Shown: positions 26,913-53,833 of the stretch, piece by piece
How the letters are laid out: every line of letters starts with the position of its first letter
Numbering within the stretch: position 1 is the stretch's first letter
DNA from: Blastococcus colisei
GTDB lineage: Bacteria; Actinomycetota; Actinomycetes; Mycobacteriales; Geodermatophilaceae
NCBI RefSeq assembly: GCF_006717095.1
Contig: NZ_VFQE01000002.1
Location: 806,001 to 870,000, forward strand
DNA: 64,000 bases
Direction of reading: 5' to 3'
Notes under the pieces: generated by a model
Databases searched by the model: none
Told to the model about the DNA's origin: nothing
The model's input: only the letters and a program-made list of their open reading frames with translations
Made by a program: the position numbers and the translations under genes

Positions 26913-28867
26913 CACCGTGCCTCCAGCGGCAGTCCCGCGACGACGCGGGTGCCGCCGGGCCCACTGGTGACGGTGAGCGCGCCACCGACCGCCTGCGCGC
27001 GGATGCGCATGGAATCCAGGCCCACGCCGCCGGGTCGTGGACCGTCGGCCTCCGCCGTCCCGAATCCGGTGCCGTCGTCGCCCACCGACACCTCGAGCCG
27101 GCCGTCCCGGGCGCGCAGCTCCACGTCGGCCGATCGCGCGCCGGCGTGCCGGGCCACGTTCGTCAGTGCCTCCTGTGCGATCCGGTAGGCCGCCGTCTCG
27201 ACGTCGGGCGGCAGCGGCGGCAGTTCCTCCGCGGTCACCCGCACCGGCACCGACGGGGCCAGCGCCTCGGCGTGCCGGCGGACCGCCGCGACGAAGCCGA
27301 CGTCGTCGAGCGGCTGCGGGCGCAGGCCGTCGATGATCCGGCGCACCTCGCCGACGGCGGCGTCGACCTCGTCCTTCAGCCGCGCCAGCAGCGTCGCGGT
27401 GGGATCGTCGGCCCGCCCGTCCAGGTGCGCCTGCACCGCCTGCACGCCGAGGCCGATACCGGCCAGCGACGGGCCGAGCCCGTCGTGCAGGTCGCGGCGG
27501 ATGCGGTCGCGTTCGGCGTGGGTGGCGGTCAGCACCCGATCCCGCTCCCGCTCCAGCCACCCGGCGAGCTCCAGTGCCCGCACGACCACGGCCACCTGGG
27601 GTGCCAGCGCAGCCAGCAGCCGCAGGTCCCCAGCCGTGAACGGCTCGCCCGGGTGCCGTTCGGTCACGTGCAGCGTGCCGACGTCCCGGCCACCGACGCG
27701 CAGCGGCATGGCGACCGTGCCGCCCTCCTCCGTCGGCGGATCCCCTGGGCGCGTGACGACAGCGCCCGGCGCGCGCAGGGCGGCGGTCACACTGCCCAGT
27801 GCGGCCGGAAGGAGGTCCGCCTCCTCGGCGGTGGCTACTCGGTCGCCGAGCTCGGTCACGGCGCCGACCGGGTCACGACGCCGTCCGTAGACCAGGCGGT
27901 CGGCCGCCGCCTGCAGCCGCCCGCGCGCGGGGCCGAGCGCCACGGCGATCAGGGCGGCGGCCACCGCGGCGGGAACGGCCGACAGCGTCCGCCCGAGCGC
28001 GGCCGCGGTCACCGTCGCGACGGCGAGGTAGAGGACGACGACGGCGGCCGTGAGGGCCGCGTACACGAGCGCCCGGCTCACCACGATGCCGAGCAGCCGG
28101 TAGCGGACGACGCCGATGAGGATGGAGCCCGGCACCATCATGGCCAGCGGCAGCCAGACCCAGGGCGACGGGATGAAGAAGATCGCCACCATGAGGGGCA
28201 GCACGACGCACAGCAGCCACGCCAGCTGCTGGCGCTCCGGCGACCGGGCCCGCGCCAGCCGCAGGACGGTCGCTGCCCAGATCGTGAGCGTCCCGGCGGC
28301 GATGGCGAGGCCGGCGACGACCCCGGCCCCCACGACCCATCCGGCTTCGGGCAGCAGGACGGGCGCCGTACCGGACGCGAAGTCGTCGTACGAGCTCTGG
28401 GAAAGGCTGCTCAGGACGGTCACGACGAGCAACCCGGACACGACCGCCCCCACGGGCCAGCGCCACCACCGCGCGGGCAGCCGACCGGAGGGGTAGACGG
28501 CGACCAGCACCGTCGCCGGCAGCAACGCGGCCGGGAGCCAGGCCATCGACCCGGCCTGAGCGATCACGGCAGCGAGGGGCCACGCCGGATCGGCGACCCT
28601 CGTGCCGTAGCCCCCGTACGCGACCGCCGTGGAGCTGAGCGCCCCCAGCAGCCCGGTCAGCACCAGCAGCCAGCCGATCGAGTTCCGCGGCCGCAGATGG
28701 ACCAGCAGTGCGCCGGTCGCCGCGTAGACGGGGCCGATGGCATCGCTCAGGACGCCTGCCCCGGACTCAGGGAGGCGGGCGTCCACCCAGGCCGACAGGC
28801 CGACGGCGGCCGCACACAGCAGCGTCGCCGTGACGGCGGCGCCGGTCGGGAGGTAGCGAGGGCGCAC
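26912..28867 (-). CDS. NarL-type sensor histidine kinase, multi-TM
   Basis: A 651-residue protein: about nine N-terminal hydrophobic segments, a GAF-like region near 370-440, then a HisKA_3 domain with ERDRIRRDLHDGLGPSLAGIGLGV (His in RRDLHDGL) and a C-terminal ATPase with EALTNVARHAGA and VGDDGTGFG. This architecture is common for actinobacterial kinases sensing membrane or lipid signals. The start is GTG 28867; no good ribosome site is visible. Confidence 0.9.
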   Translation of the reverse strand: MRPRYLPTGAAVTATLLCAAAVGLSAWVDARLPESGAGVLSDAIGPVYAATGALLVHLRPRNSIGWLLVLTGLLGALSSTAVAYGGYGTRVADPAWPLAAVIAQAGSMAWLPAALLPATVLVAVYPSGRLPARWWRWPVGAVVSGLLVVTVLSSLSQSSYDDFASGTAPVLLPEAGWVVGAGVVAGLAIAAGTLTIWAATVLRLARARSPERQQLAWLLCVVLPLMVAIFFIPSPWVWLPLAMMVPGSILIGVVRYRLLGIVVSRALVYAALTAAVVVLYLAVATVTAAALGRTLSAVPAAVAAALIAVALGPARGRLQAAADRLVYGRRRDPVGAVTELGDRVATAEEADLLPAALGSVTAALRAPGAVVTRPGDPPTEEGGTVAMPLRVGGRDVGTLHVTERHPGEPFTAGDLRLLAALAPQVAVVVRALELAGWLERERDRVLTATHAERDRIRRDLHDGLGPSLAGIGLGVQAVQAHLDGRADDPTATLLARLKDEVDAAVGEVRRIIDGLRPQPLDDVGFVAAVRRHAEALAPSVPVRVTAEELPPLPPDVETAAYRIAQEALTNVARHAGARSADVELRARDGRLEVSVGDDGTGFGTAEADGPRPGGVGLDSMRIRAQAVGGALTVTSGPGGTRVVAGLPLEAR

Positions 28868-29036
28868 GGCATCAGTGTGCCGTCGGTCGTGTCCCGGTGG
28901 GGGGCCTCGGCGTCCCGGTCGAGCCGGGAGGAGTTCCCGGGTCGGGCGGCCGTGCGGCCCATCCGCAGGGACGCCCGGGACCGACACGGTGGCGTCCGAC
29001 CGGCCACCGGTGCCGGCACCGACCCGGGAGGACCTC

Positions 29037-29522
29037 ATGTCTGCCAGCTCGACCGTCCCGTCCACCGCCACGCGCCGCTCCGTGCCGGCGCCCGACGCCT
29101 TCACGACCGCCGGTGCAGTTCTCGCCCTCGGCTGCACGCTGGCCGGCACCTTCCTCGAGACGCCGTGGAAGGACGATTCCGGCTGGGGCGTCGACTTCCA
29201 CGGACACGGCGGCTGGGCCGCCCTCGGGGTGAACATCGCCGTCGTCGCCGTGTCGCTGGTCCTCGTCGGCCTCGCCACCGCCCGGGCGCGAGCCCTTCCG
29301 CCGCAGCGCACCGCGGTGCGAGCACTCGTCCTCGCCGGACTCGGCGTGGTGGCGATCGCCGTCTTCTACCTCGGCATCCCGTCGGTTCTCGCGGCCGGCG
29401 CGGCCGGGGTCGCCCTCGACGCCCGCCGCCGGCTCGGCCGGCTGACCGCCCCCGCAACGGTCGCCCTCGTGCTGGCCGCCCTCACCGTCGCCACCGCCGT
29501 CTACCTCGCCTTCACCGGCTGA
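29037..29522 (+). CDS. Four-helix membrane protein, unknown function
   Basis: A 161-residue protein with a Ser/Thr-rich N-terminus and four hydrophobic segments (AFTTAGAVLALGCTLAGTFL; LGVNIAVVAVSLVLVGLA; AVRALVLAGLGVVAIAVFYLG; TVALVLAALTVATAVYLAF). A short charged loop WKDDSGWGVDFHGHGGW lies between helices 1 and 2. GGGAGG precedes the ATG. It is divergent from the NarL-type kinase and may be its regulated target or partner; no family recognised. Confidence 0.6.
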   Translation: MSASSTVPSTATRRSVPAPDAFTTAGAVLALGCTLAGTFLETPWKDDSGWGVDFHGHGGWAALGVNIAVVAVSLVLVGLATARARALPPQRTAVRALVLAGLGVVAIAVFYLGIPSVLAAGAAGVALDARRRLGRLTAPATVALVLAALTVATAVYLAFTG

Positions 29523-29563
29523 CGCGGTTTCCACCCTTCCCATCCACCAGCAAGGAGAGTCCG

Positions 29564-30049
29564 ATGACCATCACCCGATCCCGTCGCGCCGTGCTCGCGG
29601 CGACCGTCCTGCTCGCCGGCGCCGGCGCGGCTCTCGCCGTCGCCCCGACCGCGGCCGCCGACCAGACCCTGCACCTCACGACCGTGAAGGTTCCCGACCA
29701 GTCCACCGAGCTCGACCTCGGCGCTCCCGGGTTCAGCACCGGTGACACCGAGATCTTCGTCGACGAGGTGCAGCGACGCGGCAGGGCCGTCGGCAGCTCG
29801 ACAGGCAGCTGCACCCTCGCGCTGGTCTCCGACACGCGACTCGTCGCCCTGTGCACCACCACGATCCTGCTGCCGGAGGGAACCGTCACCACCCAGGGCG
29901 CCTTCGACGAGAATCCCCAGCAGGGCCCCGAGGGCTTCCGCTGGGCGGTCACCGGGGGAACCGGGCGGTACACCGGCACCGCCGGCGAGGCGATCGGCAC
30001 GTTCCGACCGGACAGCGACATCGTCGACGTGGTGATCCGTCTCCGCTGA
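29564..30049 (+). CDS. Secreted allene-oxide-cyclase-barrel-like protein
   Basis: A 161-residue protein with a Tat- or Sec-type signal peptide (RSRRAVLAATVLLAGAGAALAVAPTAAA). It is followed by a small beta-barrel-like domain: STGSCTLALVSDTRLVALCTTTILLPEGTVTTQG and FRWAVTGGTGRYTGTAGEAIGTF. The GGTGRYxGxxGE motif is shared by dirigent / AOC-barrel proteins. Function in bacteria is unknown. AAGGAG precedes the ATG and a strong terminator follows. Confidence 0.7.
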   Translation: MTITRSRRAVLAATVLLAGAGAALAVAPTAAADQTLHLTTVKVPDQSTELDLGAPGFSTGDTEIFVDEVQRRGRAVGSSTGSCTLALVSDTRLVALCTTTILLPEGTVTTQGAFDENPQQGPEGFRWAVTGGTGRYTGTAGEAIGTFRPDSDIVDVVIRLR

Positions 30050-30065
30050 CGATGATCCGCCCATG

Positions 30066-30100
30066 CCGGGGCCGCTCGCGTGCGTCGCGAGCGGCCCCGG
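30066..30100 (+). terminator. Strong hairpin terminator after the AOC-like gene
   Basis: A 15-bp perfect stem (30066-30080 with 30086-30100) and a 5-nt loop, all GC-rich, 16 nt after the stop codon. No T-run. Confidence 0.75.
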
Positions 30101-30138
30101 TGCGCCGTGCGCGACACAAGACCTCTGGTCGTGAGCAT

Positions 30139-30196
30139 GAGCGGAGGGCGTGGGATTCGAACCCACGATGGGTGTTACCCCATAGCGGTTTTCAAG
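30139..30196. repeat. Attachment-site repeat, left end of the tRNA-Ser island
   Basis: These 58 bases are identical to 39678-39735, where they form the 3' half of an intact tRNA-Ser gene. Outside the 58 bases the two sites diverge completely. This is the pattern left by integration of an element at a tRNA 3' end. Confidence 0.88.
30142..30196 (-). pseudogene. tRNA-Ser 3' fragment
   Basis: Corresponds to the anticodon-stem 3' side, variable arm, T arm and acceptor 3' strand of tRNA-Ser(UGA). Beyond 30196 the sequence no longer forms the anticodon stem, D arm or 5' acceptor strand, so it cannot make a tRNA. Confidence 0.88.
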
Positions 30197-30394
30197 CTTG
30201 GTTCAGAGGCTCTCCGAACCAACAACGATCAATCGTTTTCGCAGGTGAAAATCGAAATCGCCGACGCCATTGATTACCCCCACCAGCCGCTGAAGGTTCG
30301 GCCGCAGCAGCCGTACCCCGCCGATTTCCGACGTCGGTGGGCCGCCAGGGGCCGGTCGCTGCAGTACACGACTTTGGCCATAGCCCCACACGGC

Positions 30395-30428
30395 AGCAGG
30401 ACCCCGCTCCGACGAGCGGGGCCCTGCT
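30395..30428 (-). terminator. Hairpin terminator after the coiled-coil gene
   Basis: A 14-16 bp stem with one mismatch around a CGAC loop (arms near AGCAGGACCCCGCTC and GAGCGGGGCCCTGCT), 23 nt after the stop at 30451. Confidence 0.7.
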
Positions 30429-30450
30429 CGTGCGTCAGATGCCGTAGGCG

Positions 30451-31089
30451 TCAGTCGTCGTCCGAATCGCTGGAGTCGTCGTCCCCACCGCCGGAGCCCG
30501 AGTTCGCCGAGCCGGAGCCGGAGTTGTCCGGCTTGGACGCCTTCTCGGCGGCCTCGCGTGCCTGCTCCTCGGCATCCTCGGCGGCCTCGCGGGCCTCCTC
30601 CTCAGCCTCACGGGCCTGCTCCTCGGCAACCTCGGCGGCCTCCCGGGCGTCCTCCTCAGCCTCACGGGCCTGCTCCTCGGCCTCCTCGGCGGCCTCGCGA
30701 GCCTCCTCCTCAGCCTCACGGGCCTGCTCCTCGGCCTCCTCGGCGGCCTCCCGGGCGTCCTCCTCGGCCTCGGCAGCCAGCCGAGCCGGGTCGTCGGAGT
30801 CGTCAGGGCCGTCGCTCTCGTCGGTGTCGGGCGCATCGGGCAGGTCGCCCGGCCCGTCGAGGCCCGAGTCGTCGGTCTTGAGGCTGTCGTTGGAATCGGG
30901 AAGGTCGAACGGCGACACGGTCTCGACCGCGGCGGCCACCGGGTCCTGAAGCGAGGCGGGCAGGGCGCCGACGGCGCCCGCTCCCGTGACACCAGCCACG
31001 GCGATGCCGAGGCCCGCGGTGGCCTGCGCGACTGCGCCGGCACCGGCGATCTTGGCCGCGACCGCGGCGAGGCCTTCGAACAGCAACAT
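30451..31089 (-). CDS. Acidic repeat protein with predicted long helix, unknown function
   Basis: A 212-residue protein. Residues 1-50 are hydrophobic and Ala/Gly-rich (LAAVAAKIAGAGAVAQATAGLGIAVAGV), seen in many actinobacterial small proteins. Residues 60-105 are Asp-rich and disordered. Residues 109-180 are four tandem 18-residue repeats of the form EE(D/E)AREAAE(E/V/D)AEEQAREA. The tail is Gly/Ser/Asp-rich, ending SSDSDDD. An 18-residue period equals five helical turns, so each repeat would show the same face. GGAGGAG precedes the ATG. It is island cargo and may be a surface or DNA-mimic-like acidic protein; this is a guess. Confidence 0.65.
   Translation of the reverse strand: MLLFEGLAAVAAKIAGAGAVAQATAGLGIAVAGVTGAGAVGALPASLQDPVAAAVETVSPFDLPDSNDSLKTDDSGLDGPGDLPDAPDTDESDGPDDSDDPARLAAEAEEDAREAAEEAEEQAREAEEEAREAAEEAEEQAREAEEDAREAAEVAEEQAREAEEEAREAAEDAEEQAREAAEKASKPDNSGSGSANSGSGGGDDDSSDSDDD
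30550..30765 (-). repeat. Four tandem 54-bp coding repeats
   Basis: The region encodes four near-identical 18-residue units within the acidic protein. Units differ by Glu/Asp and Glu/Val swaps, so copy number could change by slippage or recombination. Confidence 0.8.
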
Positions 31090-31117
31090 GTGGGGGCTCC
31101 TCCGAGCATGGTGGATC

Positions 31118-31834
31118 GCGCCTTCTGCCGATCCGCTGCCGGTCCATCGGCGCGCCGGGCCTTCAACCTGAGCCGGGGTCATCCCGAAGGGGGACTCCGC
31201 GGTATCCCCCTGGAAGACGATCGTCTGCGGATGGAACAGCGGGAGGACATCGACCGGCCCCGTGGTGCCGAACACCCGGACTTGGACGGGAAGGCCTGTC
31301 CCAGCGAGGTGGTGAGCCGTGGCCGAGCGATCCTCGCTGTGGTCGAGCAGCAGACTGGCCCCCGCGTCAACGCCCGAGGGGAACGGCGAGCCGGTGCGGT
31401 GGGGTCGCTGCGGCGCGCCGAGCGTGTCTGGGCAAGGGAGACCACGTAGGCACCAGATCCGGCAGCGAGGCGCGGCCGGGCGGGAGCCAAAGAGGCGGTG
31501 GCCGGGCTCGTACTCGCGGTGCACTCTGAGGTCCGTCTGCACCGAGCGCACCTCGACGACCGCGCCGTCGGCGACCAGCTCGAGCAGCGCGACGACCGCC
31601 GGCTGCAAGAGACTGCGCATGGCCTCCATGGCCAACACCGGGGGCTCGCCCAGCTCCACCAACTCCACGGCCCCGGCGGTCGTAGCGGTGAACGCCTTCT
31701 TGACCAGCAGCGCCTTGCCGGCGCGTACGTATGCCCAGAGACGAAGGCGTGGTGCTGGGCGTGGGCGTGGCCACGTAGAGGACGTCGACGTCCGGGCCGG
31801 TCATGATCTCCCCATAGGACCGATTCGCGGACAC
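31118..31834 (-). pseudogene. Gfo/Idh/MocA-family oxidoreductase remnant
   Basis: Reading down the minus strand, SYGEIMTGPDVDVLYVATP (near 31830-31770) is followed in a different frame by HAFVSLGIRAGKALLVKKAFTATTAGAVELVEL and VRSVQTDLRVHREYEPGHRLFG. A third frame then gives GAYVVSLAQT. These are consecutive blocks of one Gfo/Idh/MocA protein, so at least two frameshifts are present. The N-terminal nucleotide-binding part is absent. It is decayed island cargo, once probably a sugar dehydrogenase linked to the neighbouring sugar genes. Confidence 0.75.
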
Positions 31835-32180
31835 ATTGCTCCGGAGGCGGTTGCCCTCCGGTTCTGGGCCAGTGGTCACGACCTGACCATGCTCTTCCTC
31901 ACCGGGGTCTTGTGCCGCGAGGCACTCGAGCCCATGCAAGCGGTCCCGGTAGACCCGCCGGGTGAGTCGTCTCGGATGGGGGGCAACCGGGACGCTCTTG
32001 GCCGGCAGAGCCGCGTCGTCCGCCGGCCGCTCGACACGCGCCGCCGTTCCGCGGGGAGGCTGCTGCGAGACCGTGAGCTGGTGCTGCTGCCACTACCACA
32101 ACTGCGTCATCAGCCCTGGCGCGAGTGGTGTACGCGCGCAGGACGATCGGCGGACGTGCCGACAGACTGGTCCCGAGCGG
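31835..32180. other. Island spacer without a supportable gene
   Basis: About 350 nt between the oxidoreductase remnant and the lipoprotein gene. Open frames exist but show no protein-like composition. No strong hairpin found. Confidence 0.5.
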
Positions 32181-32858
32181 TCAGCCGACCGACAGTGCCC
32201 CGATGAACTGCCGCACCACCTGCTGGCCGGTGGAGTCGTCGCCGGTGGTCATTCCGGCCTGATAGTTCGCGCCGTCCGAGCCCTGGATGTAGACACGCAA
32301 CCGCAGCACCGTGCCGCTGCCGGGGGCGGGGACCGGCTCCTCGTCGAGCGATCCGGCGGCGACCTCCGCGCCGGGGACAGTCAGGGCGAACACCCGGGCA
32401 CCGCCCACCGGGACCGCGCCGTCGAAGACGGCGGTCGTGCTGCTCTGGATGAGGTACTCGGCCAGCGCCTCACCGTCCCCGTCGGGTGCGGTGGTGCCGC
32501 GGATGGGGGCGCCGTTCCACGCCCGCTCGACGTAGCCGTCCCGATTGGGCTCCGTGATACCCGGACGTTCTCTGGCGCCGGCGGGCACGGCGAAGGACAG
32601 CCCGTTGAAACTTCCGGTCTTCCAGCCGTCCGGCACCCCGGCCTCAACGCCGTCCAACGGTTCGTACGGAGGCTCCGGCGGAGCCGGCCTGGACGTCGCC
32701 GCCGGGGTCGACGGCGCAGACGCACTCGAGGTCGCGGGCGCACTCGGCGACACGGCCTGGCTCGCGACGGCGGCGGTGCCCTGAACGGCTCCGCAGGCAC
32801 TCAGCGTCACGGTAGAGGCGGTCAGGAACACCGGTACGGCATGGCGCCAGCGAATCAT
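32181..32858 (-). CDS. Island lipoprotein, unknown function
   Basis: A 225-residue protein: signal peptide with lipobox LSAC (Cys22), a Ser/Ala/Pro linker to about residue 65, then a globular domain (DGWKTGSFNGLSFAVPAGAR; VFALTVPGAEVAAGS; VLRLRVYIQGSDGANYQAGMTT; GQQVVRQFIGALSVG). This pattern resembles small LpqN/LpqT-like extracytoplasmic domains, but I cannot assign it firmly. It is the last gene of the island sortase operon, 37 nt after the small membrane gene. Confidence 0.65.
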   Translation of the reverse strand: MIRWRHAVPVFLTASTVTLSACGAVQGTAAVASQAVSPSAPATSSASAPSTPAATSRPAPPEPPYEPLDGVEAGVPDGWKTGSFNGLSFAVPAGARERPGITEPNRDGYVERAWNGAPIRGTTAPDGDGEALAEYLIQSSTTAVFDGAVPVGGARVFALTVPGAEVAAGSLDEEPVPAPGSGTVLRLRVYIQGSDGANYQAGMTTGDDSTGQQVVRQFIGALSVG

Positions 32859-32895
32859 CTGTTCTGCACTCCTCTCGACGGGTGCACCGTGGTGG

Positions 32896-33093
32896 TCAGC
32901 GCCGGGCAGACGCGCACTTGGCGGACTCGCTGGGGCATCGGTCGATGGTGACGTCGTTGAACGGCAGGTGTGGCTCGACTGCGGGGAAGACGACGAACAG
33001 CAGCAGCGCAGCGGCGGCGAGGACCAGGAGGAGCGACTGCGCCACCTTGCTGCCCGCGCTGCCGGGCAGGTGTCGCCAGATCCAGGTGTACAT
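32896..33093 (-). CDS. Sortase-partner small membrane protein, island copy, extended C-terminus
   Basis: A 65-residue protein starting MYTWIWRHLPG, with one hydrophobic helix (VAQSLLLVLAAAALLLFVVFP) and then VEPHLPFNDVTID. It is a clear paralogue of the 51-residue protein at 52781-52936. That protein stops right after FNDVTVD; here the stop codon is replaced by CGA and 14 extra residues follow, so this is a stop-loss version. AAGGAG precedes the ATG. In both loci it sits 14-16 nt downstream of a class E sortase gene. Confidence 0.75.
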   Translation of the reverse strand: MYTWIWRHLPGSAGSKVAQSLLLVLAAAALLLFVVFPAVEPHLPFNDVTIDRCPSESAKCASARR

Positions 33094-33109
33094 TGTCCGA
33101 CTCCTTGGG

Positions 33110-33931
33110 TCAGGCCGGGATCTGTCGCTGCTGCAGCGCCAGGGGGCCGTCCGGTGCCGCCGCCTCGGTCAGCGGAGCGCCGTCGAGCACGGCGTGGATG
33201 ACCAACCGGGTCCGGGCGGAGTACTTCGGATGGCAGGTGGTCAGCGTCAGGTAGGCGCCGGTCGGGGCTGCGGTCATCGCGCCGCGGGGGGTGGGCGCGA
33301 TGACCGACACGTCGATCGGGTCGACGACCTCGCGGCCGGGCACGCCGTTGCCGTCCGGGACGAACTCTCCCGTCGCGGTGTCGCCGATGACCCGGTAGGT
33401 GTACCAGGCGTCTTCGGTCTCCACGACGATCAGATCACCGGGCCGCAGGGTGTCCAGGTCCAGGAACGGGGAGCCCCGGCCGACTCGGTGACCGGCGACG
33501 GCGAAGTTGCCCGGTTGACCGGGCATCGCCGTGCCTACGTAGTGGCCGGGGCCGTGGGCTAACTGCTGCTCCTAGGTGCCTTCCACGACGGCCCGGCGGT
33601 AGTCGGTGCCGAGTCGAGGGATGTGCAGGAACCCGAACGGTTCGCCGACCGGCGGTGCGGTGACCGGCGGCGGCACCGCGACGGTCGTCGGCGATGGCGC
33701 GTCCCACTCATCGCGCAGTTGCTCGGTGAGGTGCGCCTGCGCCCGGTCGCTGTACAGGTCGCTGACGAAGTTCTCATAGACGATGAGTAGTCCCACGATC
33801 ACCGCCACGGTGACCAACAGCTGCCCCAGCCCGCTGACCAACGGACGGACAACATCGCCCAGGGATCGGCGGGCGACCGTCGGCGCGGGTCGCGGAGGAG
33901 CATGCTCTACCGGAGGCGAGACGAGAGTCAT
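33110..33931 (-). pseudogene. Class E sortase, island copy, with in-frame amber codon
   Basis: A 273-codon frame interrupted by TAG at 33572-33574. Upstream part: membrane helix (LLVTVAVIVGLLIVYENF) and FGFLHIPRLGTDYRRAVVEGT. Downstream part: HGPGHYVGTAMPGQPGNFAVAGHRVG with catalytic His, and GAYLTLTTCHPKYSARTRLVIH with catalytic Cys and Arg. The intact paralogue at 52951-53742 has Gln (EGTQERQL) where the stop lies, so CAG to TAG is the simplest change. Without readthrough the product lacks the active site. It sits in an operon behind wecB (13-nt gap). Confidence 0.85.
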
Positions 33932-33944
33932 GCATTCCCGCCGA

Positions 33945-35231
33945 TCAGCCGTCGCTGCGGGCGTAGCGATCGTCCTGCGGACGCCGGCCTGGCTTCCCGA
34001 TCTGACGGCCGCCGTCGATGCCGGGCAGATCGAAATCGATCCCAACCGGCGTCGCAGGCGTGATCGATGCGACGAAGTCGGGCAGGCGCTGCCCGACCCC
34101 GAGCATGGCCGCGATGGCCGCAGCGCTACGAGCCCCGGCCAGGCCGTCGCCGTAGGGCGATTGCTCGACCGTCATGGCTGCGTGGGCCAGTGGCTCGGAC
34201 AGCAGCGTCGTCAACGTAGAGACGATGCGAGCCCCGTCCGTGCCGACCAACTCTGCCGCACCGCACTCCACAGCCTCCTGCCGTTCGGTCACGTCCCGGG
34301 TGACCAGCACCGGCACACCCAGAGCAGGCGCCTCCTCCTGGATGCCACCCGAGTCGGTGACAGCCACGTCGGCGATGCGCAACAGGCGGACGAGGTCGTC
34401 GTAGGCCGCCGGACCGGTGAGCACCACGTTGGGCAGGTCCGCCACGGCCGGACTGACCCAGTCGCGGACGGCGGGGTTGGCGTGCAGCGGCCAGACGAAC
34501 TGGACGTCGGGCCGCGCGGTGGCGACCTCGCCGATCGCGGCGGCAACCTCTCGCAGCGGCTGTCCCCATGACTCCCGCCGATGGGCGGTCACCAGGACGG
34601 TCGGCCGCTGCCCACGGACCCGGTACTCACCGAGCGCATCCGCCAGCATCGCTTCGCTCCACGGGCGCTGCCACGTGGCGGCCTCGTAGAGGGCGTCGAT
34701 GACGGTGTTGCCGGTGACGGCGATGTCGGCGGAGTCGACGCCCTCGGCCAGGAGGGCGTCCCGGTTGCCTGCGGTCGCTGCTAGGTGGAGCGCGGCCAAC
34801 CGCGTGGTCAGGCGGCGATTGGCCTCCTCGGGAAACGGGTTGTGCAGGTCGCCGGTACGCAGCCCGGCCTCGACGTGCACCACCGGCCGGCGGGTATAGA
34901 AGGCACCCAGCGCGGCGGCGAACGTCGTGGACGTGTCACCCTGCACCACCACGGCCGACGGGTCGGCACTCTCCAGCACCGGACGCAGGCCGAGCAGCGC
35001 CCGGGCGGTGATCTCCTCCAGCGACTGGCCGGGTGCGTGCAGGTCGAGATCGGCGTGCGGCGCGACGCCGAACATGGTGAGCACCTGGGTGAGCATCTCC
35101 CGGTGCTGGCCGGTCACCGCCACGATCGGCGCTAGGTTCGGGTGGGCATCGAGGGCGCGGATGACCGGCACCATCTTGATCGCTTCCGGACGGGTGCCGA
35201 AGACGACGAGCACGCGGTGCAGCGAGGACAT
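33945..35231 (-). CDS. wecB: UDP-N-acetylglucosamine 2-epimerase, non-hydrolysing
   Basis: A 428-residue protein: VFGTRPEAIKMVPVIRAL at 10-27, VTGQHREML, VQGDTSTTFAAALGAFY, HVEAGLRTGDLHNPFPEEANRR and SGGIQEEAPALGVPVLVTR, all WecB signatures. It makes UDP-ManNAc for cell-surface glycans. The last 50 residues go beyond the usual 370-380 length. It lies between a glycosyltransferase gene (23-nt gap) and the sortase, suggesting glycan decoration of the anchored surface protein, which is inference. Confidence 0.93.
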   Translation of the reverse strand: MSSLHRVLVVFGTRPEAIKMVPVIRALDAHPNLAPIVAVTGQHREMLTQVLTMFGVAPHADLDLHAPGQSLEEITARALLGLRPVLESADPSAVVVQGDTSTTFAAALGAFYTRRPVVHVEAGLRTGDLHNPFPEEANRRLTTRLAALHLAATAGNRDALLAEGVDSADIAVTGNTVIDALYEAATWQRPWSEAMLADALGEYRVRGQRPTVLVTAHRRESWGQPLREVAAAIGEVATARPDVQFVWPLHANPAVRDWVSPAVADLPNVVLTGPAAYDDLVRLLRIADVAVTDSGGIQEEAPALGVPVLVTRDVTERQEAVECGAAELVGTDGARIVSTLTTLLSEPLAHAAMTVEQSPYGDGLAGARSAAAIAAMLGVGQRLPDFVASITPATPVGIDFDLPGIDGGRQIGKPGRRPQDDRYARSDG

Positions 35232-35254
35232 GGCAGAGGCTCCCGGGAAAGCGG

Positions 35255-36787
35255 TCAGGTCGCGGTGGGACGGCGACGGACGTTCGGCGGCACGGGAGGC
35301 AACAGACGAGGCATGACCACCGTGGGCATCTCGTCGTAGTTGTCCCGCAGGACGTACTCGGTCGGCCGTCCCCTCCGATGGAGTGCGGCCGACGTGGCCT
35401 GGGCCGGCTGCCCGACCATCACGGGCTCCGGCATCGACCGGGACGGCTGGGCGGGCGCGAACGCCTCATGGCGCCACCACTCCAGGGCCGGGTCGGCCTC
35501 CACGCGGGCGTCGGGGTCCACGCCCTCGGGCTTGGGGAGGGAGGGGTCCTCCTCCACCGCGCGGGCCGTCTTGGCCCATCCATTGCGGCGCAGCAGGATC
35601 CGGCCGAGGGCCCGGTACTCGGCGATGTACCAGATGTAGTTGTACAGCGCGAGCAGGTGCCCCATGGCGAGTGCGCGCAGCAGGGACAGATCGCCTGCCC
35701 GCCGCCGGTACTTCAGCGACATGTACAGGGCGGGGGCGAACGTGAACAAGTACTGGAGTGCGGAGTAGACGAGACCGAACGGGCTGAACCACAGCTCTGG
35801 GTTCGCGACGACGCTGGTCACGTAGAAGACCATGGCGGCTGCGAACATGATCGGCGCCAGCAGCACCAGGCCCGGCGCCAGCAGGTAGTAGCACATGTCG
35901 AAGGCGGTCACCGTCGGCAGGTGCGAGGCGAGCACCTTCGGTACGAGCTTCCAGCACTGAAAATGCCCCTGCGCCCAGCGGGTGCGCTGCCGGATCAGCA
36001 GCCGCGGGTTCGTCAGGCCCTGCTGGTCGACGTGCGTCTCGCCGCAGAACCGGTTCAGCCACCCGTTGATGGCAAGCCGCACACCTAGATCGAGGTCCTC
36101 GGTGAGGCACTCGCTCCACGGGTCGTCGCCCAGTTCCATCAGAGCCGCGAGCCGGGTGAACTGTCCGTTGCCGCCGAGGCCGACGCTGCCCAGTTTCTCT
36201 CGGGCGGTCTGCGTCAGCGAGGAGAACAGCAGGAACTCGTAATCCTGGAACCGGTTCAGCCACTTCTCGCGGTTGCGGATCCGGACCAGCACCTGGACCG
36301 CTCCGACCCGCTCGTCGCGGAAGTAGGGCGCCACCTCCTCAAGCACCGACGGCTCCAGGCGGCCATCCGCGTCGACGATGCACAGCACCACGTCGTGCGG
36401 GTCGATCCCCTCGGCAAGTACTTCTGCACGGATGTGCCGGTAGGCGTCGTTGAGCGCCTTGCCCTTGCCGATCTTCGCGTTCGGCAGGGTCCGCTGGAAC
36501 AACTGCACGCGGGAATCGCCCATGCGCGAGCGGACGATGCCGGCGGTGTCGTCGCTGGAGCCGTCATCGATGACCAGCACCCGGTCCTGGTCGGTACAGG
36601 CGCCCAGCAGTCCGTCGACGGTCGAGCCGATCACTAGTTCCTCGTTGAGCGCAGGAACCAGGAAGATGAATCGCTTCGGCTCGTCCCCGTCCTCGAGCAG
36701 CGGCTTCTTCGTCCGGGCGAGCGCCAGGGTGAGAAGGAGGTAACCGAGCCCGACGAGGACCAGGATCAGCGAGAGCGCGTAAAGCAC
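35255..36787 (-). CDS. Processive-type family-2 glycosyltransferase, membrane
   Basis: I choose GTG 36787, with TAGGAG 7 nt upstream. The 510-residue protein has an N-terminal helix, then VPALNEE, VIDDGSSDDT, IVDADGRLEP, TEDLDLGVR and the QxxRW motif as RQRTRWAQGHF. About four C-terminal helices follow, then a Pro-rich cytoplasmic tail. This is the plan of NdvC/BcsA/hyaluronan-type enzymes that polymerise and export sugar chains. It follows the LAxTG protein gene by 76 nt and precedes wecB. Confidence 0.9.
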   Translation of the reverse strand: MLYALSLILVLVGLGYLLLTLALARTKKPLLEDGDEPKRFIFLVPALNEELVIGSTVDGLLGACTDQDRVLVIDDGSSDDTAGIVRSRMGDSRVQLFQRTLPNAKIGKGKALNDAYRHIRAEVLAEGIDPHDVVLCIVDADGRLEPSVLEEVAPYFRDERVGAVQVLVRIRNREKWLNRFQDYEFLLFSSLTQTAREKLGSVGLGGNGQFTRLAALMELGDDPWSECLTEDLDLGVRLAINGWLNRFCGETHVDQQGLTNPRLLIRQRTRWAQGHFQCWKLVPKVLASHLPTVTAFDMCYYLLAPGLVLLAPIMFAAAMVFYVTSVVANPELWFSPFGLVYSALQYLFTFAPALYMSLKYRRRAGDLSLLRALAMGHLLALYNYIWYIAEYRALGRILLRRNGWAKTARAVEEDPSLPKPEGVDPDARVEADPALEWWRHEAFAPAQPSRSMPEPVMVGQPAQATSAALHRRGRPTEYVLRDNYDEMPTVVMPRLLPPVPPNVRRRPTAT

Positions 36788-36863
36788 CGGCGGGCTCCTA
36801 GCGGGCGAGGAAAAGCGGGAGCGGCGGGCCGCCACAGTGGCGGCCCGCCGCGTCAGGAGCTGC

Positions 36864-37391
36864 TCACGCGACCGGCAGGGTCTTGCGTCCCTGGGCTGCT
36901 CGAATCAGCGCGATGCCCGACAGGAGGGCGAGGAAGCCACCGCCGGCGTAGGCCGCGGTGCTGAAACCGGTCCACGCCAATTTGCTCGCACCGGTCGGCG
37001 AGGTCGCCGGCGCGGCGACGGTCACCACCGACTCGACGACATGCGGCGAGCCGTCCGGTGCGTTGCCGAGCGCGACCAGCGTGTGCTGACCGGTGAGGCT
37101 CGGGTCGAGGGCTACCTCCACCGACATGTGGCCGCTGGAGTCAGCGACCGTCGTGCCCAGCGTCGTCGGCTCGCTGTACTGAACGATGCTGATCGACGCG
37201 TTCGAGCCGAATCCGTCCGCGGTCAGGGTCAAGTCCTGGCCGGCCACCAGCGACGTCGTCGCGGTACCGCCGAGACTGAGCGTGCCGGTGGACGCCGGGA
37301 CGGAGTCGGGCGCGACCGGGAACCCGGTGGCCCCACAGACGAAGAGAGCGGTCGCGGCGCAGACGCCGGCGACCGGCTTGCCGAGGGTCAT
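36864..37391 (-). CDS. LAxTG surface protein, island sortase substrate
   Basis: A 175-residue protein: signal peptide (GVCAATALFVCGATGFPVAP), one Ig-like domain (LVAGQDLTLTADGFGSNASISIVQYSEP ... HTLVALG), then the sorting signal LAWTG near residue 141, a hydrophobic helix (AYAGGGFLALLSGIALIRAA) and a basic tail. LAxTG signals are cut by class E sortases. The domain is homologous to the last Ig-like domain of the LAATG protein at 53834-55030. GTAGGAG precedes the ATG. It is the first gene of the island operon. Confidence 0.8.
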   Translation of the reverse strand: MTLGKPVAGVCAATALFVCGATGFPVAPDSVPASTGTLSLGGTATTSLVAGQDLTLTADGFGSNASISIVQYSEPTTLGTTVADSSGHMSVEVALDPSLTGQHTLVALGNAPDGSPHVVESVVTVAAPATSPTGASKLAWTGFSTAAYAGGGFLALLSGIALIRAAQGRKTLPVA

Positions 37392-37799
37392 CAAGACTCC
37401 TACTTCGGGACGAGCGACAGAGTTGGCGCTCAGCTGGTTGGGCAGCAGACGTCAGGTCGGCTACGAGGAATGATCGGCCACTCACAGACCGTCCTGAAGG
37501 CGCAACGAGATGGTGATCCGAACGATGTCTGGTGCGGACTCTTGGCAAGTTGTGACAGCCAGCCGAACGGCTGCAGCACGTGCGCCCATCGTCCTTTAGC
37601 TGCTGTGCGAGATCTGCTCTGGCTGGGCACGGCACGGACGGGTTCCGCGGCGTCCGGCCAGGCGGGCCACCGGGCGCGCGGGTGCACCGACGGCCCAGGG
37701 TCGTGCGCGCCGGTTGGGCACAAGGGCGTCGTCAACGGCGGCCGGGTCGGCGTCCAGGTCGTTCAGGTGGCGGTCGCGAGTGAGCACCGCAGCTTTGCG
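37392..37799. other. Island spacer upstream of the surface-protein operon
   Basis: About 400 nt without a convincing gene. It must hold the promoter for the minus-strand operon, but no close sigma70 match stands out. The ISL3-type element begins near 37800. Confidence 0.45.
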
Positions 37800-38730
37800 G
37801 GCTCTTCGCGGTTCCTGGTGAAGGACGCGGCGTGAGCCGATGATCGTGAGCGTGGCCCGGAGACGTTGAGGGCCCGTGGTCCTGCTGGGATGGGTGTTGC
37901 CTAGACATCCGCACCAGTGAGGTCCACGAGCCGTGTTCGAGCCTACGGGCTCGCAGCGTGACGCCGCGAGCACGATCTTCAACCTGCCCGACTACCGGGT
38001 CCTGAGCGCCATCGACGACGACGGCCTGCGCCGGGTCGAGGTGCAGTCCACCGACCCACCCGGCTGCCCAGTCTGTGGAGTGCTCGCCGCGCGGGTGCAC
38101 TCACGCCGCAGGCAACTGCTCCGGGACCTGCCGGTGGCCGGTCCGGTGGAGCTGGTCTGGGTCAAGCGCTGCTGGTTCTGCGACCAGGCTCGTTGCTCGC
38201 GTCAGACGTTCAGCGAGGTCACCGACCAGGTGCCGGCGTACGCCCGCTCCACTGCCCGGTTGTGCCAGGCACTGGTCGCCGCCGTGGTCGTCTCCGGTCG
38301 GGCGGCCAGCGAGGTCGCCCGCGCGCACCGGGTGTCCTGGTGGCCGGTGCAGGCCATGCTCACCGCCGCTGCCGACCTGATCATCGACCCCGACGACGTG
38401 CTCGTCCGCCGGCTCGGGGTCGATGAGCACCGCTACCGCTCGGTCCGTTTCTTCCGCGACGAGAGCGGCGGCTGGCGGCGCTACGAGCCATGGATGACCA
38501 CCCTGGTCGATACCGACACCGGCCGGGTGCTTGGCGTGGTCGACGGCCGCGACTCCACCGGCGTCGGCGCCTGGCTGGCCGCGCGCAGCCAGACCTGGCG
38601 GGGAAGCGTGGAGGTGGTGGCGATCGACCCGTCGGCGGCGTTCCGCAAGGCGCTGCGCGAACACCTGCCGGCAGCGGCGGTCAGCGTCGATCCGTTCCAC
38701 CTGGTGAAGCTGGCCAACGACACGGTGGAG
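37800..38730 (+). mobile_element. ISL3-type insertion sequence, right part lost
   Basis: The probable left end starts GGCTCTTCGCGGTTCC near 37800, similar in form to ISL3-family termini (recalled, not checked). It carries the transposase described below. No matching right inverted repeat is present because the element ends where integrase sequence begins, near 38724. Confidence 0.6.
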
Positions 38731-38826
38731 GTCGACATGGGTCGCGGCGTCTGGCTCGACCCGTTGCGCAGCGGCGTCACGCTCCGCGACTACAGCCAGG
38801 CGTGGCTGGCAGAGCGGACCGCATAA
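37933..38826 (+). pseudogene. ISL3-family transposase, truncated and fused to integrase sequence
   Basis: The frame begins at GTG 37933 and runs 297 codons. It has the ISL3 N-terminal zinc-finger-like CPVCG...CWFCDQARCSRQTF, the HTH region and the DDE start (RLGVDEHRYR; VVAIDPSAAFRKAL). It stops matching after FHLVKLANDT. The last 33 residues (VEVDMGRGVWLDPLRSGVTLRDYSQAWLAERT) instead belong to a tyrosine integrase N-terminus. About the last third of the transposase, including the final catalytic Glu, is missing, so it should be inactive. Confidence 0.85.
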
Positions 38827-39603
38827 CTCCGGCAGCCGTGCGGCGATGGCACGCCGAGACGAGCGCAGCCACCGGCCCGACGGCGACCAGGCAGGCCTAT
38901 GCCCTCCTCCACGCCATCCTGGCCACGGCCGTTGCAGACGACGCGCTCCCTCGGAATCCCTGCCGGATCAAGGGTGCGGGCCAGGCCCGCAGTGACGAGC
39001 GACCGCTGCTGGACGTCGACCAGGTGCAGCACCTCTCCGCGAACATGCCCGAGAACCTCCGGGGTCTCGTCGACCTGGCCTTCTGGGCCCACCTGCGCCT
39101 CGGCGAGCTGCTGGCTCTCCGCATCGGCGACATCGACATGGACGCGGGCACCGTGGCCGTGCAGCGGCAGGTCGTGGAGACGGACGCGGGCCCCGTGGAG
39201 AGCACACCGAAGGTGGGCAGCCAGCGCGTCGTCCACCTCCCCCCGCAGGGCGTCTCAGCACTGGCCGAGCACCTGAAGACCCGCTCCCCGGCGCTGCCAA
39301 CGGCTCGGCTGTTCGTGCGGAGAGACGGGAGAACTCTCCGCGCCCATCACGTCCACGCCGCCTGGAGCACAGCCCGGCGAGCAGCCGACCTGCCCGACGT
39401 TCATCCGCACCACCTGCGGCATGCGGGCCTCACCCTTGCGGCGCAGAGCGGGGGCCCTGGCCGAGGTCATGCGGCGCGCCGGCCACTCATCGTCCCGCGC
39501 GGCGATGATCTACCAGCACGCGGCCGAGCGGCGCGACGCCGAGGTCGCGGCCCGCCTGGGGCACCTCGCAGCGGGCACCACTCCCAACCGTACGGGCACG
39601 TAG
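38724..39603 (+). pseudogene. Tyrosine integrase remnant of the island
   Basis: Pieces in order: N-terminal arm-binding fragment fused to the transposase frame; after the stop at 38824-38826 and a frame change, ITPAAVRRWHAE with the core-binding domain; the catalytic domain with Arg in FWAHLRLGELLALRIGDID and HLRH in HPHHLRHAGLTLAAQSG. Another frame change near 39440 leads to LAEVMRRAGHSSSRAAMIYQHA with the nucleophile Tyr. A stretch of roughly 30 residues after AERT is missing. It ends 74 nt from the right attachment repeat, the expected place for an integrase. Confidence 0.85.
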
Positions 39604-39677
39604 CGGGCACGCGAGCGGGCGGCGGCGCGGGACTTCCGTCGCCAGAGTTCTTCCGGACAGGACAAAACGCTGGTCAG

Positions 39678-39735
39678 GAGCGGAGGGCGTGGGATTCGAA
39701 CCCACGATGGGTGTTACCCCATAGCGGTTTTCAAG
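39678..39735. repeat. Attachment-site repeat, right end of the island
   Basis: The right copy of the 58-bp repeat, identical to 30139-30196. It overlaps the 3' half of the intact tRNA-Ser gene, which is reconstituted by the element or retained from the host. Confidence 0.88.
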
Positions 39736-39767
39736 ACCGCCGCCATCGGCCACTAGGCGAGCCCTCC
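39681..39767 (-). tRNA. tRNA-Ser (anticodon UGA)
   Basis: 87 nt. The 5' acceptor strand GGAGGGC (39767-39761) pairs with GCCCTCC (39688-39682), with G as discriminator. The anticodon loop CTTGAAA lies between GCGGT and ACCGC stems, giving UGA. A long variable arm and GGTTCGAATCC T-loop are present, as expected for a class II tRNA. CCA is not encoded. Confidence 0.95.
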
Positions 39768-39827: not shown

Positions 39828-40661
39828 TCAGGCGCCGGAGTGGTCCTGGGTGACCGGCGCCGGGGTGGCCCCGGCTGCGACCGGCTCGTCGGGGGACGCC
39901 GTCTTCGCGCGGTGGATCTGCTCGTAGACGCGGGCCCGCAGCTCGGCGAAGCGCGGGGAGGACCGGGTGGTCAGCTGGTCGCGCTCGTCGGGCAGGTCGA
40001 TGGTGAGGTCGTCGCGGATCACCGTGGGCGAGTTGGACAGGATCAGCACCCGCTGGCCCAGGTAGACCGCCTCGTCGATGTCGTGGGTGACGAACAGCGT
40101 CGTCACCTTGAACTTGTGCCACAGGTCGCGGATCAGGTCCTCGAGATCGGCGCGGGTCTGCGCGTCGACGGCGGCGAACGGCTCGTCCATGAGCAGCACG
40201 TGCGGCTCGTAGGCGACGGCGCGGGCGATCGCGACCCGCTGCTGCATGCCGCCCGACAGCTGCCACGGGTAGGCGGCGTGCGCCTCGGCGAGCCCGACGG
40301 CGGCCAGTGACTCCTCGACGAGCTGCCTGCGCCGCTCCGTCGGCAGCTTCTTCTGCTTGAGCGGCAGCTCGACGTTCTCGCGGACGGTCATCCACGGGAA
40401 GAGGCTGCGGCCGTACTCCTGGAAGACGACGGCCATGCCCGGCGGGGGACCCGAGACCCGCGCGCCGTCCATGAGCACCTCGCCGGAGGTCGGCTCCAGC
40501 AGCCCGGACATGATCTTCAGCAGGGTCGTCTTGCCACACCCGGACGGGCCGACCAGGCAGGCGAGCTCGCCCTGGCCGAGGGTGAAGGTGAGGTCGCGCA
40601 CGGCCTCGACCGTGCGGTCCTTGCTCTCGTACACCTTCTTGATGCCGCGGACGTCGAGCAT
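39828..40661 (-). CDS. ABC transporter ATPase, SsuB/TauB type
   Basis: A 277-residue protein: Walker A VGPSGCGKTT near 38, Q-loop VFQEYGRSLFPWMTV, signature LSGGMQQRVAIARA, Walker B VLLMDEPFAAVD and H-loop FVTHDIDEA. It matches importers of nitrate, sulfonates, taurine, or aromatic/riboflavin-like compounds. GGAAGG precedes the ATG. It is the last gene of a substrate-binding protein/permease/permease/ATPase operon. Confidence 0.93.
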   Translation of the reverse strand: MLDVRGIKKVYESKDRTVEAVRDLTFTLGQGELACLVGPSGCGKTTLLKIMSGLLEPTSGEVLMDGARVSGPPPGMAVVFQEYGRSLFPWMTVRENVELPLKQKKLPTERRRQLVEESLAAVGLAEAHAAYPWQLSGGMQQRVAIARAVAYEPHVLLMDEPFAAVDAQTRADLEDLIRDLWHKFKVTTLFVTHDIDEAVYLGQRVLILSNSPTVIRDDLTIDLPDERDQLTTRSSPRFAELRARVYEQIHRAKTASPDEPVAAGATPAPVTQDHSGA

Positions 40662-40675
40662 GGGAAACCTTCCGA

Positions 40676-41449
40676 TCAGGAGGAGCGCTGGGCGCGGCGC
40701 AGGCCGTGGTACCAGGCCAGCCGGCGGTTCTCGACCAGCCGGAACAGCATCGCCAGCAGGAAGCCGAGCAGACCGAGCATCAACATGCCTGCCCACGTCT
40801 CGGGGATGGCGAAGCTCCGCTGGGCCTGCACGACGGCGAAACCGAGCCCGTTCGTGGCCGCGAAGAGCTCGCTGATGACCATGAGGATGATCGCCACCGA
40901 CAGGCCCTGCCGCAGGCCGGCGAAGATCTGCGGGCTGGCACTGGGCAGCACCAGGTACCGCAGCCGGGACCAGCCGTGGACGCCGTACACGCGGCCGGTG
41001 TCGCTGAGCACCTCGTCGACGGCACGCACTCCCTCGACGGTGTTCAGCAGGATCGGCCACATGCACCCGAAGGCGATCACGACGATCTTCATGCCGTCGC
41101 CGATGCCGAAGAGCAGGATGAAGATCGGCACCAGCACCGGCGGCGGGATCGCGCGGAAGAACTCGAACACCGGCTCGGTCAGCCCCCGCACCGTCCGGGA
41201 GGTGCCGATCAGCACGCCCAAGCCGAGGGAGACCGCTGCGGCGAGCGCGTATCCGGCGGCCAGCCGGTACAGGCTCGGCCAGACGTCGTCGACCAGCCGG
41301 GCGCCGAACCACTCCTGGACGAGGCTGTCGAGGATCTCCGACAGCGGCGGGAAGAAGAAGTTGGTACTGCCGGCACTGGCCACCCACCAGACGGTGAACA
41401 GCATGACCGGCAGCCCCAGGGCCATCCCGATGCGATGCACGACGCTCAC
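40676..41449 (-). CDS. ABC transporter permease, SsuC type (2)
   Basis: A 257-residue protein with about six hydrophobic segments and the coupling loop EGVRAVDEVLSDTGRVYGVHGWSRLRYLVLPSASPQIFAGLRQGL around residues 139-185. The GTG start overlaps the stop of the short repeat-encoded frame (GTGA at 41446-41449). It pairs with the permease at 41523-42377 as a heterodimer. Confidence 0.92.
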   Translation of the reverse strand: MSVVHRIGMALGLPVMLFTVWWVASAGSTNFFFPPLSEILDSLVQEWFGARLVDDVWPSLYRLAAGYALAAAVSLGLGVLIGTSRTVRGLTEPVFEFFRAIPPPVLVPIFILLFGIGDGMKIVVIAFGCMWPILLNTVEGVRAVDEVLSDTGRVYGVHGWSRLRYLVLPSASPQIFAGLRQGLSVAIILMVISELFAATNGLGFAVVQAQRSFAIPETWAGMLMLGLLGFLLAMLFRLVENRRLAWYHGLRRAQRSS

Positions 41450-41502
41450 GAGTCCTCCTCGCTGGCGCTCGTCGGCCGCGTTCGCGAGGCTGCTGTGCTC
41501 AT
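41446..41502 (-). CDS. 18-residue peptide encoded by dispersed repeat, copy 3
   Basis: MSTAASRTRPTSASEEDS, TGA overlapping the GTG of the next permease. The 20-nt spacer 41503-41522 links it to the upstream permease stop (TGA 41523-41525). The layout is identical to that at 10756-10835, with a diverged sequence; the frame and length are kept despite base changes. Confidence 0.5.
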   Translation of the reverse strand: MSTAASRTRPTSASEEDS

Positions 41503-41525
41503 GCGTGAACTCGCAAGCTCCTTCA
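41446..41525 (-). repeat. Dispersed coupling repeat, third copy
   Basis: 80 nt from the upstream gene's TGA to the downstream gene's GTG, filling the whole gap between two permease genes. The hairpin arms GTGAA and TTCAC replace GTGAG and CTCAC of the copies at 10756-10889, so base pairing is preserved. Confidence 0.75.
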
Positions 41526-52936: not shown

Positions 52937-52950
52937 GCAGTGCTCCTTCC

Positions 52951-53742: not shown

Positions 53743-53833
53743 TGCAGGTCCGTTCGTACGTGCGCGGTGGTGCGCGGAGGACGTGCGACGACCCGGGACC
53801 CGAGCCGGGTGGCTCGGGTCCCGGGTCGGGCGG

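Follow-up and report, generated by a model that had tools for sequence, protein, structure and literature searches.

The sequence studied is a stretch of 64,000 nt from the soil actinobacterium Blastococcus colisei (GCF_006717095.1, NZ_VFQE01000002.1, positions 806,001-870,000), referred to as the window, and all positions are those of the window. The following features surround a tRNA-Ser(UGA) gene, with the basis of each assignment in brackets.

25182..26264, minus strand: left neighbour of the tRNA in congeners, a gene without Pfam match and its upstream region (locus comparison)
26265..30138, no strand: second insertion (congeneric empty sites)
26280-26909, minus strand: response regulator, RR (within the second insertion)
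26912-29311, minus strand: histidine kinase, HK (within the second insertion)
29573-30046, plus strand: AOC-like gene (within the second insertion)
30139..30196, no strand: att repeat, distal end, the displaced tRNA 3' half (58/58 identical to 39678..39735)
30197..30292, no strand: distal end of the element (alignment to the G073 element)
30381..31212, minus strand: acidic-repeat gene, upstream region and terminator (block common to other genomes)
31171..31939, minus strand: oxidoreductase remnant in more than one frame, C-terminus missing (homology to a protein in L154)
32181..32858, minus strand: lipoprotein-like protein of 225 aa (sequence; without Pfam match at E<=0.01)
32896..33093, minus strand: membrane protein of 65 aa (homology search)
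33110..33931, minus strand: interrupted sortase, its start at about 33931 being our reading (Pfam; sequence)
33945..35231, minus strand: UDP-GlcNAc 2-epimerase (Pfam PF02350, E 1.6e-99)
35255..36835, minus strand: membrane glycosyltransferase family 2, GT2 (Pfam)
36864..37394, minus strand: exported protein of 176 aa with C-terminal LAWTG and a hydrophobic segment (sequence)
37933..38722 (end approximate), plus strand: ISL3-family transposase without its 3' part, fused with what remains of the integrase (Pfam)
38723..39603, plus strand: broken tyrosine integrase with a lost start and two internal losses (Pfam PF00589)
39678..39735, no strand: att repeat, tRNA end (repeat and tRNA searches)
39680..39767, minus strand: tRNA-Ser(UGA), intact target gene (ARAGORN; Rfam gives 39681-39767)
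39828..42377, minus strand: ABC transporter genes, right neighbour in several congeners (locus comparison)

A perfect 58-bp repeat matching the 3' half of the tRNA-Ser had been noticed in a preliminary description, and repeat alignment, ARAGORN and Rfam bear this out. Specifically, the copies at 30139-30196 and 39678-39735 agree at all 58 positions and are spaced 9539 apart (E 1.1e-23), the repeat covers the tRNA gene between the anticodon loop and its 3' end, the 3' half of the intact gene lies within the right copy, and the displaced fragment has the same orientation as the intact tRNA. A search of the genome itself with the tRNA (E<=0.001) returned both repeat positions plus a single 75% match elsewhere. 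A loose 13-base tRNA pattern gave only the two known places in the window and was set aside, matches at such looseness being at chance level. Beyond the left repeat the likeness to an element end continues, and 30139-30292 is 81% identical, att included, to the distal end of an element in Blastococcus sp. TF02A-30 (G073); excluding att, arithmetic on the alignment gives about 75% over 96 bp.

The integrase adjoins the right repeat, inside the island. The two frame changes and internal loss already read from it are confirmed, relative to four relatives, as a 97-bp loss at about 38,817 and one of 2 bp at about 39,453 (one assembly), yet that list was incomplete, since the first 51 residues of a full-length protein of 376 aa are also lost, the remnant starting at about 38,723, where it is fused to the truncated ISL3-family transposase. 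The latter is the sole match across 16 congeneric genomes at E<=1e-30. No second integrase of the same family was found in the genome at E<=1e-20 (27 of 33 first-look candidates scored), and together with the lesions this supports the earlier claim that the island would be unable to excise by its own integrase.

Most of the cargo is a tight operon of six genes, encoding the LAWTG protein, the glycosyltransferase, the epimerase, the sortase, the membrane protein and the lipoprotein. The LAWTG motif and hydrophobic segment are presumably a sortase E type signal; the protein is 39% identical over 94 aa to a host gene at 53.9-54.2 kb, likeness to host sortases puts the sortase in class E, and relatives of the 65-aa membrane protein also adjoin both other sortase genes of the same genome. 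The acidic-repeat gene lies in a block with sharp edges and close copies in other genomes. It had been thought that the acidic-repeat protein and the sugar and sortase genes were the only intact-looking cargo; this stands for the acidic-repeat, epimerase and GT2 genes, whose frames are open (the latter two matching their Pfam domains), but not for the sortase, whose frame is interrupted by an in-frame TAG (33572-33574) lying upstream of the sortase-domain match (one assembly). A broken gene had also been missed, namely the oxidoreductase remnant, which shares 48% identity across 150 aa with a protein of 327 aa from L154 and is presumably of the Gfo/Idh/MocA type; its piece at 31370-31939 has no Pfam match.

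The cargo is a mosaic of the six-gene operon and a probably separately acquired acidic-repeat gene, and among the loci seen it is never found together with this integrase. At E<=1e-55, relatives of the GT2 occur in 47 of 397 genomes from this order, a count that includes the genome studied here, and an epimerase is present in 12 of the 14 longer stretches fetched around them (5.7-16 kb). That the sortase-glycan operon is a recurrent module was rejected, no sortase or LAWTG match being found in these 14 stretches or in those of G002, G047, G028 and G018; a GT2 search of GTDB r220 contigs gave 18 pattern-matching stretches, none encoding a relative. A non-coding RNA suspected beside acidic-repeat homologues was likewise dropped, as Rfam gave nothing at that place in 11 sources, and the conserved stretch there reads by eye as a probable protein remnant. 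The lone Rfam match in these sources was to an ASdes sRNA, in L315, and lies some 1.6 kb away from the unit.

Comparison with congeners changes the extent of the inserted DNA. An empty site joining 30138 to 39736 had been predicted; the join 30138|39678 was seen in none of 12 congeneric loci, whereas 26264|39678 is aligned through in six of them (G006, G012, G013, G011, G008, G004). The extra DNA here is therefore, by these alignments, apparently about 13.4 kb in two layers, as opposed to 9.5 kb, and 26,265-30,138 would be a separate insertion, proposed to be either older or independent at the same spot. The lack of a continuous tRNA-Ser in relatives, named in the preliminary description as evidence against an island, is not what was found: a whole or nearly whole match exists in 12 of 15 other genomes of the genus (ARAGORN also used), the match is split in G010, and two drafts, G005 and G014, gave no tRNA-Ser match. 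Among the congeneric loci fetched, none had the island genes in place without flanking repeats, and no empty site with the RR-HK-AOC layer and without the island was found.

The RR-HK-AOC cluster is itself a block of 3.2-3.8 kb in 10 other genomes. No tRNA gene was found beside it in ten loci of 6-7 kb (L250 has a tmRNA gene), and L243, L244 and L246 have flanks in common with one another, so that the cluster does not occupy a different place in every genome. Three of the ten loci (L241, L244, L248) also match window ORFs ending inside the island, and these matches were taken for likely mechanical ORFs crossing the boundary.

The nearest relatives of the integrase indicate what the island may have lost. 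The integrase piece is 93-96% identical in seven Blastococcus and Geodermatophilus genomes, all of which have it adjoining tRNA-Ser(UGA); four of these proteins align along the full 376 residues, two diverge within roughly the first 15, and G093 has a shorter frame. In a scan with an alignment of eight relatives as query, among the best 80 of 192 loci of the named collection, tRNA-Ser(TGA) lies at most 1.5 kb downstream in 10 of 10 loci at an integrase identity of at least 72%, in one of two at 62%, and in none of 68 at about 45% or below. Two HTH genes stand beside the integrase in all seven closest copies and a near-full-length TrwC/MobF relaxase in five of the seven. Both HTH genes and the relaxase are without a match in the island of the window (E<=1e-4), a loss that had gone unnoticed. 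Both att ends, with integrase and relaxase between them, were found in G073, G092 and G083, and no T4SS or coupling-protein gene was recognised among their Pfam-scanned ORFs (11 of 12 called, 8 of 13 and 9 of 14, respectively). Delimited relatives measure 13.7, 18.4, 17.5, 15.5, 9.8, 42.1 and 3.9 kb, compared with 9.5 kb for the island. The closest branch has anti-phage cargo, comprising an Avs2-type protein, a CAP12-type TIR adjoining a GajB-like helicase, and an FRG protein. At E<=1e-4 no relaxase was found in G118 and G131 (more distant relatives in the same tRNA gene, with 82% integrases and both ends found), in the fetched parts of G114, or in the other remnants G003, G069 and G090. Because of G118, G131 and G114, the label of a MobF integrative mobilisable element (IME) fits the closest branch only, and the lost relaxase of the island is therefore deduced from its nearest kin.

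Three other origins have to be weighed. The six congeneric loci that lack the entire stretch would also follow if 26,265-39,735 were one larger island, within which the repeat at 30,139 recorded some earlier event; this is unlikely, as there is no trace of a tRNA 3' half at 26,264 (score 16, with 214 of 300 mononucleotide shuffles as good), the G073 element has a distal end that matches 30,139-30,292, and RR-HK-AOC recurs as a block of its own at loci lacking a tRNA gene. A decayed prophage in place of a mobilisable element is very improbable: tyrosine integrases in tRNA genes serve prophages too, but no phage structural gene was recognised among the Pfam-scanned island genes, and the nearest relatives have, by Pfam, TrwC relaxases and defence genes. 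Least credible of all, to the point of being nearly negligible, is a duplication of the tRNA gene with ordinary core genes in between. The repeat by itself could arise in this way, but the six congeneric loci have joined flanks without these genes, the integrase is at its expected place, and the GC content of the island is 70.6% against 75.5% and 72.9% in the flanks, a small difference.

With high confidence, then, 30,139-39,735 is best read as the decayed remnant of an integrative mobilisable element of Geodermatophilaceae specific for tRNA-Ser(UGA). This reading is built on what the sequences show: the att repeats and lesions of the island, the branch to which its integrase belongs together with the target of that branch, and the HTH and relaxase genes carried by the closest relatives. 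The element would have entered when its integrase joined an attP that contained its own copy of the tRNA 3' half to the tRNA gene; the gene at 39,680-39,767 would thereby have been made whole again, and its original 3' half would have ended up at 30,139. For excision, the integrase and an HTH excisionase would have been needed, and for transfer the MobF relaxase and the conjugation channel of a helper. The start of the integrase, the HTH genes and the relaxase may then have been lost through deletions and the arrival of the ISL3 element, which would leave the island immobile today unless its att sites are served in trans by a related integrase. As for the cargo, the enzyme families suggest that the epimerase would make UDP-ManNAc, that the GT2 would polymerise or transfer the ManNAc product and that the sortase would anchor the LAWTG protein, a role that the resident sortase at 52,954-53,742 may now fill; the acidic-repeat gene would have been acquired separately from the six-gene operon.

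In the sections of the IME review drawn on here, a cis-mobilisable element (CIME) is one that retains attL and attR and has lost its integration and transfer genes (PMC5704250). The island corresponds to this in its two att ends (58/58), its broken integrase, the missing HTH and relaxase genes of its kin and its position next to another inserted layer. It differs in that the integrase remnant is still recognisable, and its mobilisation in trans is hypothetical. As with the tRNA-gene islands of Islander, in the part of that work used here (PMC4383910), there is an intact tRNA with a displaced 3' fragment, an integrase between them and beside the tRNA, a repeat stretching between the anticodon loop and the 3' end, and a continuous empty site (join at 26264); unlike those, it has a broken integrase and would not count as putatively active in the Islander sense.

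The nearest relatives resemble canonical IMEs in having an integrase, HTH genes and a relaxase, with no T4SS among the ORFs scanned, but their relaxase is TrwC/MobF, and the same sections of the 2017 review give no known canonical IME with MobF or MobH and count one canonical IME in Actinobacteria (PMC5704250). The combination of a MobF relaxase and an integrase is shared with actinobacterial T4SS-type ICEs, which, in the portion of that survey used here, were chosen for VirB4 and coupling-protein genes (PMC3218068), none of which appear among the relatives' scanned ORFs. By 2011, actinobacteria were already known to have chromosomal relaxases unaccompanied by a T4SS, and no description of this branch was found in the open-licence literature, among the matches listed. 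It is conceivable, at somewhat less than an even chance, that the island is the fossil of a MobF-relaxase IME from an undescribed branch, seen so far in Blastococcus and Geodermatophilus, whose members are dedicated to tRNA-Ser(UGA) and have anti-phage cargo; if so, these IMEs would close the gap noted in the 2017 review. The findings point to relaxase-bearing, defence-carrying elements in a phylum with a single canonical IME in those sections of the review (PMC5704250), and the sortase-and-glycan operon of the island was not seen elsewhere in the loci examined. One locus and one family offer ordered states, from elements with integrase, HTH genes and relaxase, through those without relaxase and remnants such as G003 and the island of the window, to empty sites, and the corrected ends of the inserted region give the right primers for excision tests.

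The island at 30,139-39,735 lies in the 5.16-Mb host genome, and the closest named relatives of its integrase are in Geodermatophilaceae. Its repeat ends had been correctly placed in the preliminary description: the 58-bp direct repeat is exact, and its right copy, starting in the anticodon loop, makes up the 3′ half of an intact minus-strand tRNA-Ser(UGA). From left to right, the following features were found.

Features of the island
30139-30196: left copy of the 58-bp repeat
about 95 bp, to the right of that copy: element end
30381-31212: acidic-repeat gene with its control regions
between the acidic-repeat gene and the six-gene set: oxidoreductase remnant
minus strand: six-gene set (left to right: lipoprotein, 65-aa membrane protein, sortase, UDP-GlcNAc 2-epimerase, GT2, LAWTG protein)
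beside the six-gene set, to its right: truncated ISL3 transposase, running into the broken integrase
39678-39735: right copy of the repeat

The six cargo genes are spaced by 13-37 bp. The sortase among them, previously listed as intact-looking, carries an in-frame TAG at 33572-33574 (we read its start at about 33931), and the sortase-domain match falls beyond this stop. At 52,784-54,208 the host has a resident set that parallels the one in the island (sortase, membrane protein and LAXTG-type gene), and a third sortase of the host lies at G000:C1:7737 (G000 being its own genome; other G numbers denote compared genomes and L numbers retrieved stretches).

The view that this is a tRNA-Ser island fixed by decay is supported. 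Its integrase shows three losses: of the 376 residues of a full-length protein, the first 51 are missing here, and two deletions follow, one of 97 bp (near 38,817) and one of 2 bp (near 39,453). When a 209-residue piece of the broken copy was searched against 112 family genomes, 56 of these matched at E<=1e-20, seven of which, from two other genera, are 93-96% identical. An intact tRNA-Ser(TGA) adjoins the integrase in 13 of 14 loci retrieved from among the best (G115 and G128 are not among these), the exception being G016. Among the best 80 of 192 loci from the named collection, this tRNA accompanies all ten integrases of at least 72% identity and one of the two with 62%, but is absent beside the 68 whose identity is about 45% or less; the choice of target therefore belongs to the island's branch of integrases. 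The G016 locus has just the 5′ half of tRNA-Ser(UGA), near a 60% related integrase (L126:15940-15990), and no intact copy was detected by ARAGORN in the retrieved stretches.

What the island may have lost can be read from its relatives. Two HTH_17-type proteins adjoin the integrase in all seven closest members, and in five of these there is also a TrwC relaxase-helicase whose alignment spans 1,145-1,215 of 1,215 residues; in the remaining two, the contig stops there (G078) or holds only a 92-residue relaxase piece near its end (G093). The window island has no match to the relaxase or the HTH genes at E<=1e-4. No relaxase match at E<=1e-4 exists in G118 and G131, for which both element ends are known, in the retrieved parts of G114, or in the remnants in G003, G069 and G090, which counts against a relaxase throughout the family.

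Sizes of elements with both ends found
relaxase-bearing: G073 (Blastococcus sp. TF02A-30), 13.7 kb; G092, 18.4 kb; G083, 17.5 kb
without relaxase match: G118, 15.5 kb; G131, 9.8 kb; G114 (in the parts retrieved), 42.1 kb; G003, 3.9 kb
window island: 9.5 kb

The cargo of the relaxase-bearing elements includes an Avs2-type protein in G092, an FRG protein in G083 and, in G073, a GajB-like helicase together with TIR and CAP12-type TIR proteins. No coupling protein or VirB4 was found in the ORFs scanned, which were 11 of the 12 called in G073, 8 of 13 in G092 and 9 of 14 in G083. The G003 element (L068:1-5012) is a second remnant of the same family, in which the integrase survives only as its C-terminal part and the cargo is different (by eye, isochorismatase-like, SDR-like and ATPase-like genes). 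Elsewhere on C1 and C2 of the own genome there are seven TrwC/MobF relaxase loci (L286-L292).

The island fits the definition of a cis-mobilisable element (CIME), left by a mobilisable element whose MobF relaxase we infer from the nearest kin. The unusual feature would be this parent branch, given that a 2017 review knew of no canonical integrative mobilisable element (IME) with MobF (PMC5704250). Weighing against novelty, a 2011 survey had already found relaxases to be many but T4SS few in actinobacteria, and over all genomes it counted 402 chromosomal relaxases that had no T4SS nearby (PMC3158045); in Mycolicibacterium plasmids, moreover, MobF is the predominant relaxase type (PMC8190616). 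A 2024 review leaves the point undecided (PMC11389934). The case for novelty is accordingly narrowed to the closest branch.

The surroundings of the island had been misread. The predicted empty site, 30138|39678, aligned through in none of 12 congeneric loci (a set excluding G010, with its split tRNA, G005 and G014), and instead the joined flanks 26264|39678 align across the join in six (G006, G012, G013, G011, G008 and G004; with many gaps in G011). The other six have different material or a changed gene order next to the tRNA. Compared with the six that align, therefore, the left flank (26,265-30,138) is an insertion too. The cluster it carries (response regulator, histidine kinase and AOC-like gene) was also found in ten more of the 112 family genomes, where it covers 3.2-3.8 kb (two candidates were scored per genome), with no tRNA gene in these ten 6-7 kb loci; in most comparisons the flanks end at the cluster's borders, and three of the ten loci have common flanks. 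No tRNA remnant was found at the left edge of 26,265-30,138. One possibility is an older layer whose outer repeat was lost, which would agree with the way decayed elements accrete according to the 2017 review (PMC5704250).

The cargo is a mosaic. The acidic-repeat gene, with its upstream region and terminator, forms a sharply bounded block of ~830 bp, shared at 75-89% DNA identity with G072, G069 (two copies), G012, G001 and G064. For G072, both G069 copies and G012, identity is 85-89%, ending at about 30381 and 31209-31229, and the N-terminal 74 residues of the protein are 96-97% identical. The flanks are unlike in most comparisons; G072 is syntenic with one G069 copy, and the second G069 copy and G012 have about 350 bp in common on one side. 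Since homologues lie (by eye) near this shared neighbour in several family genomes, the gene may have its native home there. We infer that it reached the island as a small unit. The oxidoreductase match stops within about 20 bp of the block's start, 60 residues short of the end of the Klenkia protein. In G028 and G018 (Klenkia, the genus of G114), relatives of the oxidoreductase, epimerase and GT2 occur together at 36-49% identity. A GT2 with an epimerase close by is common across the order, and no other locus examined combines this pair with a sortase.

In G010, a ~29-kb island splits tRNA-Ser(UGA) (L080:2912-2979, L080:10039-10128 and L081:13961-13999) with only a short common core; the tRNA is not restored, and the island brings its own tRNA-Ser(UGA). 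This resembles the tRNA-dependent lysogeny of phages (PMC10865867), yet no phage structural gene is among the ten ORFs of this island that were scanned; an integrase and a methyltransferase are present. In G009 (L073) and G010 (L081), the gene that other congeners carry on the 3′ side of the tRNA sits on the 5′ side, so the locus is rearranged there. In G015, a fragment 86% identical to the tRNA 3′ half (L071:7954-8003) lies 1.1 kb from the tRNA and may be a scar left long ago by a different insertion.
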